Part shown: in pieces, positions 1 to 6,845 of the stretch | Numbering within the stretch: position 1 is the first letter of the stretch | How the letters are laid out: each line of letters starts with the position of its first letter | DNA from: Bifiguratus adelaidae | Taxonomy: Eukaryota > Mucoromycota > Endogonomycetes > Endogonales | Assembly (NCBI GenBank): GCA_002261195.1 | Contig: MVBO01000199.1 | Location: forward strand, 1-20,863 | DNA: 20,863 nucleotides | Direction: 5' to 3' | Made by a program: the position numbers and the translations under genes | The notes under the pieces: generated by a model | Databases searched by the model: none | Seen by the model: only the letters and a program-made list of their open reading frames with translations | Told to the model about the DNA's origin: nothing

Positions 1-913
1 GAGACGGAAGGACGATGCGTATTCATTGATCCAGGCAGAACGGATCTACTGTATTGCCTTGGAGAAAGAAGCACACCAGAGGTCCCCAAATTTATCGCTT
101 TACCAGAATGCAACAGAACAAAGAATCCAACCGGACAAAATACGCCGAAATACGTTGCCAGTTGAAACCATCATATGTCAAGGATTGTGAGGACCTCCTG
201 TCGACCGCAAGGAAAACGACCTGCTTCCAATAAGTTTACGACAGCTATCTTGAAATTCTCCGAAGCGTCAACCTCGTCATGCTCAACTACTATCAATCAA
301 TCCTCTGTTTCGCAAGCTTCGCCTTTGTGCATTTTTCAGAGAGCGAGAAATGGATGCTCGACTCTGCAATGGGTTGAGACGGAAATTCGAGGACCCAATC
401 CTCATTATGGGGTAAGTGCATTTTAATGACTCGAGAGAACGCGTCTGACTCTCGCCTCCGTTGTCTAGGGATTGGTCTGCACCAAACACGAAGTTTCACG
501 AGCCCATCCGAGGCGTAGCGATGAGGTGTATGCTGCGTCGAAACGGTATTCCGGTATTCCTAATCGACGAGTGCAACACCTCCTTCTTCTGTCCTTCCTG
601 TGCGTCTCCTGTCTCAACCTTCAAGACGGTCGCGAACCCTTGCTTCAAACAACGTGAGAGGTACTCGACAGTAGTGTGTCACGGCTTGTTGAGGTAGGTA
701 TTCAATGTGATTTGGCTTTTCCAATACTCACTAGAATTGCAGGTGCTCAAACCCAATTTGCCTGCAAGCCGAGCACACCACGCCGCAGCCTCAAGCAAGA
801 AGGCTTTGGAACCGCAACCGTTTGGCGACGGTTAACTTCCGTCTCATCCTCCCGAGAGATGAGTGTCCAAAAAACGGCCGCCAAGGTTCATGAGGATGAA
901 GAGGAAGGCGTAG
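1..913 (+). pseudogene. Fanzor (TnpB-like RNA-guided nuclease), C-terminal half, decayed and cut by the window edge
   Basis: RuvC and zinc-ribbon part of a eukaryotic Fanzor protein, an RNA-guided DNA nuclease carried by transposons. The frame at base 1 reads VFIDPGRTDLLYC, the RuvC-I region with its Asp at 28-30. The frame then steps by one base near the C run at 84-87, meets TAA at 231-233, and steps again at the GGG at 371-373 to give LRRKFEDPILIMG. A 57-nt intron (412-468) joins this to DWSAPNTKFHEPIRG and FLIDECNTS. The zinc ribbon follows: Cys codons at 590 and 599, then, after a 49-nt intron (694-742), Cys codons at 744 and 759. The last RuvC motif reads LWNRNRLATVNF, with Asn at 816-818 where NRD is expected. 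A final one-base step near 870-875 leads into RPPRFMRMKRKA and a TAG at 911-913. Family recognition rests on the ordered motifs. Three frameshifts, one stop and the lost Asp indicate an inactive copy. Confidence 0.8.
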
Positions 914-1221
914 ATGGAATTTAACGGTGCATTGTTTATCGCTTTGTACACCCTAGATACACATTGTAGGATCTGTAAGGGTAAATAGCATGATACTCTC
1001 CGTGGGAGGAAGTACGGACCATGACACCAGCTCGGGGAAGCACTACCTGTTGCCAGCTAATGCGCCTTCAACAACGACAAGCATCTCGCGAGCATGTACG
1101 CCTTCCAGCAAGCGTGAACGTAATAGCATATACGCTTTGTCTCTACGTTCTTCTTTATTGCTTCCATCCTCACACATTAAAGGTTTCAAACACTGACAGA
1201 CTTAGGCTTATCGTATTCCTT
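914..1221. other. Intergenic: Fanzor 3' flank
   Basis: This 308-bp gap lies between the Fanzor stop and the stop of the convergent MCT transporter. Both genes end here, so it holds 3' UTRs. In active Fanzor/TnpB loci the guide (omega) RNA and the element's right end lie just after the ORF, so this is where a relic would be expected. I see only weak structure: CCTA/TAGG arms (952-955 and 967-970) and a CTCC/GGAG stem with a 3-base loop (998-1008). I cannot define an element end or a terminal inverted repeat. Confidence 0.35.
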
Positions 1222-2707
1222 CTATACAGCTCTTAGGGATCGTGGTCGAAGATACAGTGTGACAATGCTCAGAGCGCTAAGCACCATGCAAGCACCTGTA
1301 AAAATCACCACTGCCTTGTACTTCATACCATATCCAAAGCTAGTCGCGTTTGATAAAAGACCAGCGCTGATTGGGCCCGCTAGAACATTGCCTACTCCCT
1401 GGCCAAAGGAAAAGATGCTAAAGGTCGCAAGCGCAGACGTTGGATCCTCACTTATCGCTGTGCCCATTCTTACCCGCATGGACGCATAACCGGAAGCGAA
1501 GAAGCCGTATACAATAGAGAAGACTACAAGGGGCGCCATAGAGCGGGCCAGGCCCCATAGAGTAAGCGATGCTGTAGCCGCTACAACCGTGGACAAAATT
1601 GCGAGGAAATTAAGCGGAAGTCGACCGTCAGACAGGTAACCGAAGGTGAATTGCCCCCAAAACTGCATCATACTCATCAAAGCCAGCAGTAAAGCGCCTT
1701 CCGTTGCACTGAGGCCAACCGACGTTGCGTAAGATGGTAAATACAGCGAGGGGAAGTAGAAGCCGAGTCCTTGCATGACATTGGAGACGCAGTATACCCA
1801 AAAGAGTGAGCGTTTTATAAACGACCAATTTGTTCGAGCTAGAGAGCCCTGCTCTGCAGCTGGCAACCGGCCTTTGAACAGTGGGACGAGAGGCCCCGTG
1901 AGGATCGTCAACGCGATAGCGATAGCTCGGAGAGTGGTCTTGTAACCGTATCGCTCGAGCATCGCCTCGACAATAAATGGCATGAAAGTTCCCGAGAGGC
2001 CGGAAGAGCTGGTAATGATCCCCCAAGCCATCCCACGCCGAGCTATCCACCATTCGTTCACCATACTGATAATGGGGTAGTAGAATATAAGACAGCCGCC
2101 TGGCGTGAGATTAGCCAACGTGATTTGCTTCAACCAAGAGCACTACTCACCACCGTACATGACCCCCTGAGTGACCACGAGAGCGCCGAGTGTATTGGCA
2201 AACGAGCCTGCCACGAGCCCAAGGATACAAAAGGACAAGCCTACGTATATCATATGCCGTCGATACTTTGGATACCTTTTCACAAGGGCAGCGATGATAG
2301 GCATTCCAAGATACGGTATTCCAGACGTGACACTACCGATAACTGGAACATAAGGGTTACCAGCAAACTCGGGAAGCTGAGAATAGTAGTTTTGAAAGAC
2401 ACCATACGAGAGTGTAAAGCCTAGGACGTTGTCAATGACTGCGCCTATTCGCCAGCACGATAAAACGATGCTTACCCCATAAAAGAGCCTCGAAAACAAA
2501 CGTTGCCCAGACCAATCTCCAAGCTGCTGGACCCCCGTCGGCGGGTTTTAGCTGCTGACTAACGCCACCGGCACCTTCCAAGCTCGTGTTCATTTCATCT
2601 GGCAATAACTCAGACACCGTCCGTGCAGGAGTCGAAGGTCCTAGCGTTGATGACGATCCATCTTGCACCTCGAGTTCGAAAGTGGTCTCATCATCTGTAG
2701 TAGACAT
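1222..2707 (-). CDS. MCT-type (monocarboxylate porter-like) MFS transporter
   Basis: Plasma-membrane transporter of the major facilitator superfamily, most like fungal monocarboxylate porter homologues (Mch/MCT group). The substrate cannot be told from sequence. Exons on the minus strand are 2707-2476, 2420-2151 and 2099-1222, with introns of 55 and 51 nt. They join in frame to 459 residues, a normal length. The first splice restores LLWGFTLSYGVFQNYY, the typical TM1 motif of this family, and the second restores YGGGCLIFYYP. A hydrophilic acidic N-terminus of about 55 residues precedes the membrane part. The start at 2707 (MSTTDDE) was chosen because upstream codons do not look like protein. 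A 31-nt alternative for intron 1 is also in frame but adds non-family residues and is unusually short. No lesions were seen. It is divergent from the A-T-R gene and convergent with the Fanzor relic. Confidence 0.85.
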
Positions 2708-2843
2708 TAGATTGCGTTGCAAGGGACGATAACAAGGAGCTGGAAGTGGATGAACAGCGAATGTCAGCACCAAGACCGGTTAATTTAGACTGCTGAGCAA
2801 GCCCATCCGATCCAGATAATGGGATTTTGAGACTCTGACATTC

Positions 2844-2851
2844 TCACGTGA
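2844..2851. promoter_or_regulatory. TCACGTGA palindrome (E-box-like site)
   Basis: An 8-bp perfect palindrome containing CACGTG, about 140 bp upstream of the MCT start and about 500 bp upstream of the A-T-R start. CACGTG is bound by bHLH factors in fungi (Cbf1-type). One copy may be chance, so a regulatory role is inference. Confidence 0.25.
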
Positions 2852-2924
2852 GATTGATGAATGAGCCCTTTTCCGGTTATGGGAAAACGTGTAGTGACAA
2901 TATTAGCTTCCCTACGATAAGTAG

Positions 2925-2937
2925 TATTTATATAATA
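2925..2937. promoter_or_regulatory. AT-rich TATA-like box in the divergent intergenic region
   Basis: TATTTATATAATA is the most TATA-like stretch between the divergent MCT (start 2707) and A-T-R (start 3355) genes. It is far from both starts, so its use as a core promoter element is uncertain. Confidence 0.2.
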
Positions 2938-3119
2938 CGTAACTTAATAGTTCAAGTGATGCGGCCAAAGCCCTGTCTAACCGGTCTATGGGATGGGACT
3001 CGCCACCGGCTTAGCTTCCGGTTCCGCATGAGTAATACAGGTAACGTGCCAGTATGGGCAAATGACCAATCTGTACGGGAGCCAAGTATCCTCTGTGTAA
3101 TTTGCACCATGGTTCGTTT

Positions 3120-3300
3120 AGCCGCGGCATGTTCATAAGGTCCTTGATGCCGACGCTCATATCATCATCACAAATGTAGACTGCTTCGGTCTCCAGATTG
3201 CTGACAGGGTTAAAACGGTTGTAGCTCATGAGCAAGAAGATAACTTGTACGGTAAAACCGTACTCGTACAAGCCCCGACAAAAACGTGCACCAAGAATTG
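3120..3300 (-). pseudogene. Possible GT64 (exostosin-like) glycosyltransferase relic
   Basis: On the minus strand one frame reads NRFNPVSNLETEAVYICDDDM. This resembles the GT64 block in which NNRF is followed by an IETEAV-type segment and the metal-binding DDD. Just upstream a second frame reads VRFYRTS, the segment that normally precedes NNRF in this family, so a one- or two-base frame change would be needed. No further GT64 sequence is visible on either side, and the fragment lies in the upstream region of the A-T-R gene. It therefore looks like a short decayed fragment rather than a gene. The match is short and the call is tentative. Confidence 0.4.
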
Positions 3301-3354
3301 GGATCACTCAAGGGCAACATAAATTCCCCACCAAACAATGATCCTACATTCATC

Positions 3355-6300
3355 ATGTTTGCTGCGAAGCACGCAAAGTCTACACCGGAAGAGTTGAGCA
3401 CGTTGTTTAGCCAGCCCGACTTCTACATTAATCTACATCATGTTGACACCGTTGTCGAAGCTTTTGAACTTCGAGCAAAGTATACGCCCAAGCAGGTGTA
3501 CATGCTTTGCCCAAGCGTCAACACCTATGTGCCAGCTACATTTAGCGAGGTCTTTGATACGGTCGAACGATTCGCTGCTGAATGGAGCGTCAAGTTATCG
3601 CCATTGATTGAGCAAGCCAATGCCACTGGCGTCAAGCCATGTGTAGCCTTACTGGCGGAAGGTAACCTCACGTACATTGTTACTTGTTTGGCGCTTGCGA
3701 GACTGAATGTTACTATCAATCTTATCTCGACCCGAGCTAGCACTGCCGGTATGGTCCATTTGCTTCAAGAAACCGACAGCAAGGCCATCATTGTTGGTCA
3801 AGCTTACGAACAGCATGCGGCTCGTGTACGTGAGGAAATAGGCGAAGAGATGGTGCAGGTCTTCTCACTTTGCGAGATCCACGAAATTGCCGGTAAACAT
3901 GCTACGAAGACGTATACGCCTTTCAGCGACCCGGAACCCTTGACATCTGTCGGTAAGTGAATTTACTTGTTCCTGAACGCGCAACCTGACCAGAGAATAA
4001 TCTGTGGGTACTGCAGCCTTTGTGCTTCACAGTTCTGGTTCTACTGGACTGCCTCATCCAATCCGGTTGAGCAACCGATTCATGATCAACAATGGGATTG
4101 CATTTCCCAAGCATGGTGTTGACCTTACGTCACCGGGAGGTGTTTTGATGCAAGGGGTTCCATTGTAAGCAGATGAATGCCTATATACGGAAACTCGCTC
4201 ATTCATATATCTGATATAGGTTTCACGTTCTAGGTGTGTAGCTTGCGCTTCATAATGCAAAGTCATTGTTGACGATCCAATTAGGCTTTATCAATGGTGG
4301 AATGGTTAGAGCAATCTTGCAAAATGCGCCGTTTGCACTCCCGCTCACCAAAACATTGCTCGTATCTGACAATGACTTATTGCGTTCGTTGGAATTGGCC
4401 AAAGCGCAGGTTCTCTTGACCGTTCCGAGCACTGTGGACAATCTCGTCAAGCATCTAGAGCAAGTGCCCGCACGATGGAACGTACTATCCAATATGGAGT
4501 ATGGAATTTTTTATGCTGGCGCTAGTTTGAGAAGAGCTACGGCAGAAGCTCTTTTTGGGCATGGCGTACCGCTGGTGAGTCCATAGTCCCGCATGTGATG
4601 TGTGATTGACTGATGCATGATAAGCGCATGGGGTATGGAACTACGGAGACCGGCGTGCTCGCCTTTGGAGACCGCACATTGAGCGTGGATGATTATACCT
4701 CGGTCAGGACAGTCAAGGACCTCCATGTCGTCCTTGAACCCAAAGGAGACGACGTGTTCGAGGTTTTCGTGCCACGTTCGAATCCCAATGTATCCGAATA
4801 CGTATTTGCAGTGGGTCAAGATCTTTACGCAACCAAGGACTTTTTTAGAGCTGTTCCTGATCGAAAGGATTACTATGAAATTGTGGGCCGAAGTGATGAT
4901 ACTCTCGTGCATGTCAACGGCGAGAAGACGTCTCCATTGATATTGGAAGAGATCATCGAACGGTCGCCTTTGATCCGCAAAGTAGCACTCTTCGGCGCTG
5001 GACAACTTTATACTTCACTTGTGGTCGAGCTGGATCGATCCGCAACGTCAGTCCCCATCTATGAGATTGTGCAGGAAGTGGAGGAAAGCGTTGCCAATGC
5101 GAACAAGGTTGCTCCAAAGCAGTCACGTATTCTAAAGCCTTTGGTCCATATCCTGCCATTCGATGGTCCGACTATTCCGTGTTCTGACAAGGGCAACATG
5201 TAAGTGACGGATCCGCTCTTCAACGATGAATCGTTTTAACCAAAGATCAAGATCTCGAAAGAAGGCAAATCAAACGTTTGCTTCAGTAGTTGAAGCTATG
5301 TACAATCGTTTCGCTACAGAGTCAACGTCACACGCACCGGTCGCTAATGGTACTCACGGTACTAACGGTACCAATGGCGCCAATGGAACCAACGGTATAG
5401 ACTTTTCTCTCGAACATGTGCAGCGACAAATTCAGCTAATTGTTGCACATCTCTTGCAAGTCACACCGGATGCCTTGAATGATTCGAAAGCGACGTTCAT
5501 GGACCTCGGCATGGATTCTATTTATATCGTCCAAATGACGAAAGCCATCCACGAGTCTATGGGCATCAACATCACACAGAGTTTGATCTATGAGCATCCC
5601 TCCGTCCATGACCTCGCTCAGGAGCTGGTTCAAATACACCAAGGTTCAGCCGTGCCCACCGTTCCGCTCAAAGTAGACGCGGCCAAGGTGAATGAAGTCA
5701 TTGACAAATTCACGCGCAGATTGCAAGATGTGGCGGTTGGAGAGTTACCTATTGCTCCGTCATCTCCGCAAGTAGTGCTCATGACGGGAGCGACGGGGAC
5801 CGTAGGAGTCAGGCTCTTGCATGAGTTGCTACAACAGTCGGACGTGTCCATGGTGTACGTCTTATCACGGAAAGATGAGGCTAACTTGAAACGCGAGTTT
5901 GAGAAGCGCAACTTGGATCCTGCCGTCATGAAGGAACGTACCATTTTTCTCAATTACGACATGAAAGATGAGCATCTAGGTCTGTCTATGGCTGACTACA
6001 ACCTTGTTTGTCGTACGGCAACATCGATCGTTCATTGCGCTTGGAAACTGGATTTCAATCAATCATTAACCTCGTTTGAAAACGACTGCCTTTTTGGCCT
6101 GGAGTCTCTGCTCAAAGTTGCGACTCGACAGCAATTGAAGGCATTTCACTTCGTGTCGAGTATTTCAGCATGTCTGAATTTTAGCCCTGGTAGGGTTACC
6201 GAAGATGAGTTACCCAACGACCCTACCATTGCTGCTACGATGGGCTACGGGCAAAGCAAATATGTTGGCGAGAAACTGGTTTCGATGGCATCACGTCTGT

Positions 6301-6845
6301 GGTTTCTTCCAGTGTATATTCATCGGCTTGGACAAATAACTGCGGACTCGAGCTCCGGACTTTGGAACAACCGGGAGGCCGTCCCAATCATGGTAAAGAC
6401 TGGAATCATGCATATGGGGAAAATGCCAAGCAAGGACGAAGCGATTACCTGGCTACCGGTGGATGTTTGTGCTAAAGCAATGTGCGACATTGTTACTCAG
6501 TCCAATCATTGTGCTGGCATCAATGTGTTCAACCTGGTCAATCCTCGCGAAAGCACCTGGAATCAGTTTCTAGGTTACCTGAGGGATGCTGGTCTGTCGT
6601 TTGACATTATTCCTGAACAAGCTTGGATCAATGAACTGCGAAGCAGTCTTTTCGCAGACAACAATCCGGGAAGCGTCCTGGCGGACTTTTGGGATCAGGA
6701 AGCGTCACAGACAGAGATTCAAGTGCCTGCCTTTGACACCGATCACGGGCAAATGATCAGCAATGCCATGAAAGAAGTAAAGCATTTGGATGTCGCCTTT
6801 GTGCAACGTGTGGTGGATCGATGGAAGGCGGACGGTTGGCTATAA
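3355..6845 (+). CDS. NRPS-like A-T-R enzyme (adenylation, thiolation, thioester reductase) with one in-frame TAG
   Basis: Carboxylic acid reductase-type enzyme: the A domain activates an acid with ATP, the carrier binds it on phosphopantetheine, and the NADPH reductase releases an aldehyde. Exons are 3355-3952, 4017-4164, 4220-4574, 4625-5199 and 5246-6845 (introns of 64, 55, 50 and 46 nt). They join in frame to 1092 codons, the usual size. A-domain motifs are HSSGSTGLP (about residue 204), GYGTTETG (370), YEIVGRSDD and the terminal SDKGN. The carrier LGMDS places Ser at about 650. The reductase has TGATGTVG (739-746) and YGQSK (Tyr893, Lys897). The start is the first ATG in frame; the frame upstream begins with GTG. 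TAG at 4239-4241 (codon 256) interrupts the segment after PLFH. A weaker donor at 4140 spliced to 4284 would skip it in frame but delete the PLFH motif. The acid substrate is unknown. Confidence 0.85.
5347..5398 (+). repeat. Asn-Gly-Thr-rich linker repeat between A and T domains
   Basis: A run of imperfect 9-nt units in the A-T-R gene encodes NGTHGTNGTNGANGTNG. It sits in the flexible linker between the adenylation domain and the carrier domain. Such short in-frame repeats often vary in copy number between strains without disturbing the folds on either side; that is a general property, not seen here. Confidence 0.7.

Follow-up and report, generated by a model that had tools for sequence, protein, structure and literature searches.

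A most likely non-coding Fanzor1 fossil with two putative introns in the genome of the fungus Bifiguratus adelaidae

Fanzor1 is a eukaryotic protein related to the RNA-guided DNA cutters of CRISPR type. According to the literature, an intact Fanzor would act as an omega-RNA-guided RuvC nuclease: directed by RNA from the 3' end of the element, the protein finds a target that matches this RNA, and its RuvC domain then cuts the target DNA, an activity that passages of PMC10432273 propose to help transposons maintain copy number. Fanzor1 proteins occur in diverse transposons, as stated in parts of PMC3627910 and PMC10711439, the latter of which also gives DPG as a signature motif of Fanzors. Bao and Jurka (2013, PMC3627910) report Fanzor1 in Mucor, Rhizopus oryzae and Phycomyces, and in each of these one element that looks MuDR-type, its inverted repeats accompanied by 9-bp target duplications, which were not seen at the locus described here; the SPu-1 elements of Spizellomyces carry 33-bp inverted repeats and have their coding sequence in one open frame (same source), neither of which was found here. 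With regard to the third catalytic residue of the RuvC domain, part of PMC11423790 states that GtFz1 has a natural Asn at this site and is an active DNA cutter, and that the D606N substitution increased the activity of SpuFz1.

The stretch of DNA analysed here (the window) is 20,863 nucleotides long and is the entire contig C111 of a genome of 18.6 Mb in 286 contigs, that of Bifiguratus adelaidae (Mucoromycota, Endogonales incertae sedis). Judging from the sequence, positions 1-913 of its forward strand are the C-terminal half of a Fanzor1 gene, with the RuvC and the zinc-finger TNB domain (Table 1), and we hold with high confidence that they represent the decayed remains of a Fanzor1 gene from what was once a transposable element in the nuclear genome, and that this copy is by now most likely a non-coding fossil. 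In a search of PDB chains, the 82-residue frame-2 piece (449-694) matched the Parasitella parasitica Fanzor1 (9cf0) at E=1.5e-21 and the Spizellomyces punctatus SpuFz1 (8gkh) at E=6.8e-4; these two Fanzor1s were the sole chains matched at E 0.001 or better, also when the paralogue on contig C210 was the query, in a library that may or may not include a Fanzor2, and for the window piece the chains ranking after them were unrelated (E 0.043 or worse). All 15 Fanzor1 homologues tried with tblastn matched collinear pieces inside positions 1-851, not every one of them covering that whole stretch. Because of the E value to a solved Fanzor1 and of these 15 collinear homologues, a chance match can be excluded.

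The motifs appear in translation as IDPGRTDLLYC, which contains the DPG signature (frame 1), then DWSAPNTKFHEP, FLIDECNTS and CPSC (frame 2), CSNPIC and LWNRN (frame 3), and lastly FMRMKRKA ahead of the terminal TAG (frame 2). An earlier note on this DNA had proposed a Fanzor from motifs in this order; all of them are present as ordered, and the identity can be narrowed to Fanzor1. In a Pfam profile search, the Cas12f1-like TNB model PF07282 matched the 82-residue piece with an E of 0.0061, a match that falls short of the curated cut-off of the model, and the 54-residue first piece matched no Pfam family. By homology over the RuvC and TNB regions, the locus belongs to Fanzor1, as does its paralogue on contig C210. 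The N-terminal half of the gene lies off the contig; because the window begins at the contig edge, its absence is a limit of the assembly and does not refute the identification.

Table 1. Pieces, putative introns and disruptions of the Fanzor1 locus in the window.
Feature	Positions	Strand	Evidence
RuvC-I piece, frame 1, catalytic Asp in IDPGR, 5' end cut by contig edge	1..87	+	translation, tblastn
RuvC linker piece, frame 3, in-frame TAA 231-233	84..305	+	tblastn (P0004, P0005, P0007, P0009, P0012, P0027, P0087), translation
Frame-2 piece PLFRKLRLCAF...ILIMG, up to putative intron 1	299..411	+	tblastn, translation
Putative intron 1, 57 nt, GTAAGT...TAG, phase 2	412..468	+	coordinates; comparison with sister copies
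Frame-2 piece with DWSAPNTKFHEP, catalytic Glu (LIDE), CPSC zinc pair, HGLLR	469..693	+	PDB 9cf0, 8gkh, PF07282
Putative intron 2, 49 nt, GTAGGT...CAG, phase 2	694..742	+	tblastn, coordinates, sister copies
Frame-3 piece with CSNPIC, which holds the other two zinc Cys, and LWNRN of RuvC-III, in which Asn replaces Asp	743..870	+	tblastn to 851, residue census
Frame-2 tail PPRFMRMKRKA, stop TAG 911-913	870..913	+	translation, by eye against the C210 tail

The Fanzor1 reading frame is not intact, owing to the in-frame TAA and to changes of frame: the sequence is read in frame 1 to about position 87, in frame 3 from 84 and in frame 2 from about 302. Besides these two clear frameshifts, a third near 870 was recognized by eye, no tblastn piece extending beyond 851. 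The decay that had been claimed for this copy is thus borne out, and it is deduced from the frameshifts and the stop. The Asn in LWNRN does not by itself show that the copy is inactive, as GtFz1 cuts DNA with Asn at that position. Most likely, this pseudogene member of Fanzor1 would have acquired its frameshifts and stop after it had spread.

A residue census was performed on an alignment of 85 of the 100 listed homologues of C210 with eight rows from the Bifiguratus genome. The window keeps the RuvC-I Asp (found in 91 of the 93 aligned rows), the Glu and all four zinc Cys columns, which form a C4 zinc finger between RuvC-II and RuvC-III; at the third catalytic column it is one of three rows with Asn (55 have Asp, four have other residues and 31 have none), so that its triad reads Asp, Glu, Asn, the D-E-N form, together with the DPG motif. 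The P. parasitica protein PpFz1 (PDB 9cf0-9cf3) is similar to the locus in its RuvC-TNB sequence and likewise has LIDE, two pairs of zinc Cys and LWNR, but in the window Asn replaces the third Asp and the gene is broken, and the roughly 100-residue insertion that PpFz1 has between RuvC segments is missing from the window in the alignments. SpuFz1 matches the same region and is more distant than PpFz1. GtFz1, from Guillardia theta, resembles the window by description in having Asn as its third catalytic residue, yet it is intact and active.

The coding pieces are interrupted by 57- and 49-nt GT..AG insertions, which, as read from the letters, are very probably spliceosomal introns. Each falls after the second base of a codon, and excising the second carries frame 2 exactly into frame 3 between the R and the C of HGLLRCSN. 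A transcript would need both removed, one just upstream of N/DWSAP, a conserved motif, and one inside the zinc-finger domain. Their sizes can be compared with those of two host introns, 51 and about 55 nt long, which are implied when the neighbouring MFS gene is set against its annotated protein. At the first site, the insertion is absent from the copies on C210, C1 and C28, and those on C59 and C209 carry what appear by eye to be decayed counterparts, 54 nt long, ending in CAG and with mutated donors (the end of the C59 insertion is placed slightly differently by MAFFT). At the second site, a well-formed intron is present in C1, the insertions of C28, C59 and C209 are decayed at their ends, and neither C210 nor C156 shows an insertion; the ends in C59, C209 and C28 were judged partly by eye. 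C210 has instead an AG/GT...AG insertion near its N-terminus, removal of which would give SRFIFLHEL as in homologues, again by eye. The earlier note had read two short introns here and had argued for a Fanzor residing with them in a nuclear genome; the GT..AG ends, the phase 2 and the sites shared with paralogues agree with the former, splicing being putative, and the latter is supported in that the genome is that of a fungus. Jiang et al. 2023 (Sci. Adv.) reportedly discussed introns in Fanzors, and for this reason we claim no novelty for them. The word "intron" is absent from the main texts of PMC3627910, PMC10711439 and PMC10432273.

Three queries were used to search the genome (the window piece, the C210 piece and the homologue P0087); counting every contig that any of them matched at E 0.01 or better, at least 14 contigs have Fanzor1 matches, such counts being lower bounds. 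Matches were strong for C210, C1, C28 and the window's own C111, and weaker for C27, C203, C229, C156, C162, C211, C59, C209, C251 and C124 (best E 2.6e-8 to 0.007). C210 is the best paralogue, matching the Parasitella Fanzor1 at E=1.2e-102, with 493 and 141 residues open on either side of one TAA, and it reads GTIHTDGVGV, to be compared with the TDG motif of the WED domain of Fanzor1. C1 has a frame change near its middle, C28 has several stops, and the copies on C59 and C209, which lie far from the ends of longer contigs, are likewise broken. An intact paralogue elsewhere in the genome, which had been thought possible, was not seen among the loci examined, where even the best full-length frame, that of C210, has one internal stop. 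A DNA search for near-identical copies of window positions 1-1200 returned only the window itself, and Fanzor alignments of at least 100 bases between copies ranged from 60 to 68% identity, the C27/C162 pair excepted. This pair shares about 650 bases at 95% identity, including a broken Fanzor N-terminal piece (positions 4767-5414 of region L035 of C162 and the end of region L032 of C27), and may be a duplicated or an allelic segment. Both contigs have Fanzor N-terminal pieces near an end and were considered, and rejected, as the missing half of the window: the end of C162 and the start of the window have no suffix-prefix overlap of 8-299 bases, no 15-mer from the first 60 bases of the window occurs in the C162 and C27 regions examined, and C162 ends in a part that looks like C203 sequence rather than Fanzor. 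On C229, the region with the Fanzor remnant (L033, reverse complement 1-1567 and 2219-3793) also contains two directly repeated stretches of about 1.6 kb that are 74% identical, which may have arisen by tandem duplication of a gene or may represent another element.

Among the 100 listed homologues of C210, every name that bears an organism is that of an early-diverging fungus, presumably of Mucoromycota or Zoopagomycota, and most are annotated with Pfam PF26935. None of these 100 names is a Bifiguratus name, and because of this the Fanzor1 loci of Bifiguratus may be unannotated. A first, quick tree was built from 87 rows (80 homologues and seven own copies), after rows of fewer than 80 residues, C229 among them, had been dropped. 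In this tree C1 grouped with Syncephalis and Mucor Fanzors (SH-aLRT 97), C210 adjoined Piptocephalis (SH-aLRT 85), and the window had no resolved place, its end branch measuring 0.97 changes per column against a median of 0.077. Such a tree suggests that Fanzor1 may have arrived in Bifiguratus several times. In a second tree of 80 rows, from which C156, C209, C59, P0023, P0059, P0068 and P0076 were left out, no own row fell in a starred set, the C1 grouping included. A single origin of the own copies was rejected neither for seven rows in the first tree (p-AU 0.322) nor for four rows in the second (p-AU 0.347), and C1 and C210 together were likewise not rejected in the second tree (p-AU 0.347).

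It could be argued that the gene is intact in the organism, and that its apparent stop and frameshifts stem from errors of sequencing or assembly near the end of a contig. The window does begin at such an edge, and its first catalytic Asp, its Glu and its four zinc Cys are kept; however, two frame changes and a stop fall between about 84 and 305, with a further change by eye near 870, the sister copies on C59 and C209 are broken far from any contig end of this kind, and the end branch of the window row is long, all of which leads us to consider errors of this type very unlikely. The retention of catalytic and zinc residues, save the Asn at the third site, would also fit a remnant that the host had domesticated or kept for a regulatory role, and Asn is functional in GtFz1 (PMC11423790, in the part cited above). 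Such a remnant is hard to reconcile with a stop and frame changes inside the RuvC region, and C111, C59 and C209 each have disruptions of their own, so that domestication appears extremely improbable.

Decay bears also on the two insertions, as a pseudogene might have gained them at random, and it is true that the intron calls come from sequence and that the insertion ends in C59, C209 and C28 were placed partly by eye. Random insertion, however, does not sit well with two sites that both have GT..AG ends and phase 2, with frames joined on removal of the 49 nt, with sizes like those of the MFS introns, or with insertions at the same place in diverged paralogues, and it is in our opinion very unlikely.

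A transposon context for this copy is something we infer only, because no inverted repeats above chance surrounded any of the four copies tested, the best match being equalled in 39, 27, 9 and 3 of 60 shuffles (the left side of the window is missing); a separate search around C210 gave nothing above chance. MULE transposase had one match in the genome, with no demonstrated link to Fanzor, and none of 21 DDE_3 matches was shown to be linked either, the nearest on a Fanzor contig lying about 5.5 kb from the C28 copy. At G000:C207:380413-382392, DDE_3 and MULE transposase matches occur within 2 kb of one another. As for an omega-RNA, the predicted fold of positions 820-985 was no better than those of shuffled sequences (z -0.85, 36 of 200 as good), and Rfam gave no match. 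Similarity to C59 continues for 67 bases beyond the stop, to base 980, and its end could mark the old right end of the element.

The rest of the window contains other genes. An MFS transporter gene, interrupted by two short introns and annotated as BZG36_04945, occupies positions 1222-2707 of the reverse strand; the protein read from 1225-2142 on that strand is 100% identical to it over 95% of the query, which supports B. adelaidae as the host, and two B. adelaidae paralogues are listed at 91% and 82%. Among the best 120 of 848 matches, those that are named and come from outside Bifiguratus look to us like Ascomycota, a pattern that might reflect gene transfer or sparse sampling. A long open frame at 5208-6845 of the forward strand resembles the C-terminal part of an NRPS-like adenylate/thioester reductase, and matches a short B. 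adelaidae protein, BZG36_05782, at 87% over 55%; the other named matches among the 20 listed, at 26-31%, again appear to be Ascomycota.

The locus is a genuine, if ordinary, Fanzor1 fossil of a familiar kind and, as far as its sequence indicates, would have no demonstrable function of its own. With it, Bifiguratus, which is an early-diverging fungus, joins the hosts of Fanzor1. The very diverged copies in this genome amount to a graveyard, and some wider interest lies in their having intron-like insertions at the same places, which could help to place the gain and loss of introns in time relative to the spread of RNA-guided nucleases among eukaryotes. Because an insertion in the same phase is found at the zinc-finger site of both C111 and C1, the latter of which groups with Syncephalis and Mucor Fanzors in the first of the two trees, we put forward, tentatively and as a rather doubtful possibility, that this intron predates the split of several fungal Fanzor1 lineages. 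If this were true, Fanzor1s would have travelled among fungi together with their introns, whose positions could help separate vertical descent from horizontal transfer.
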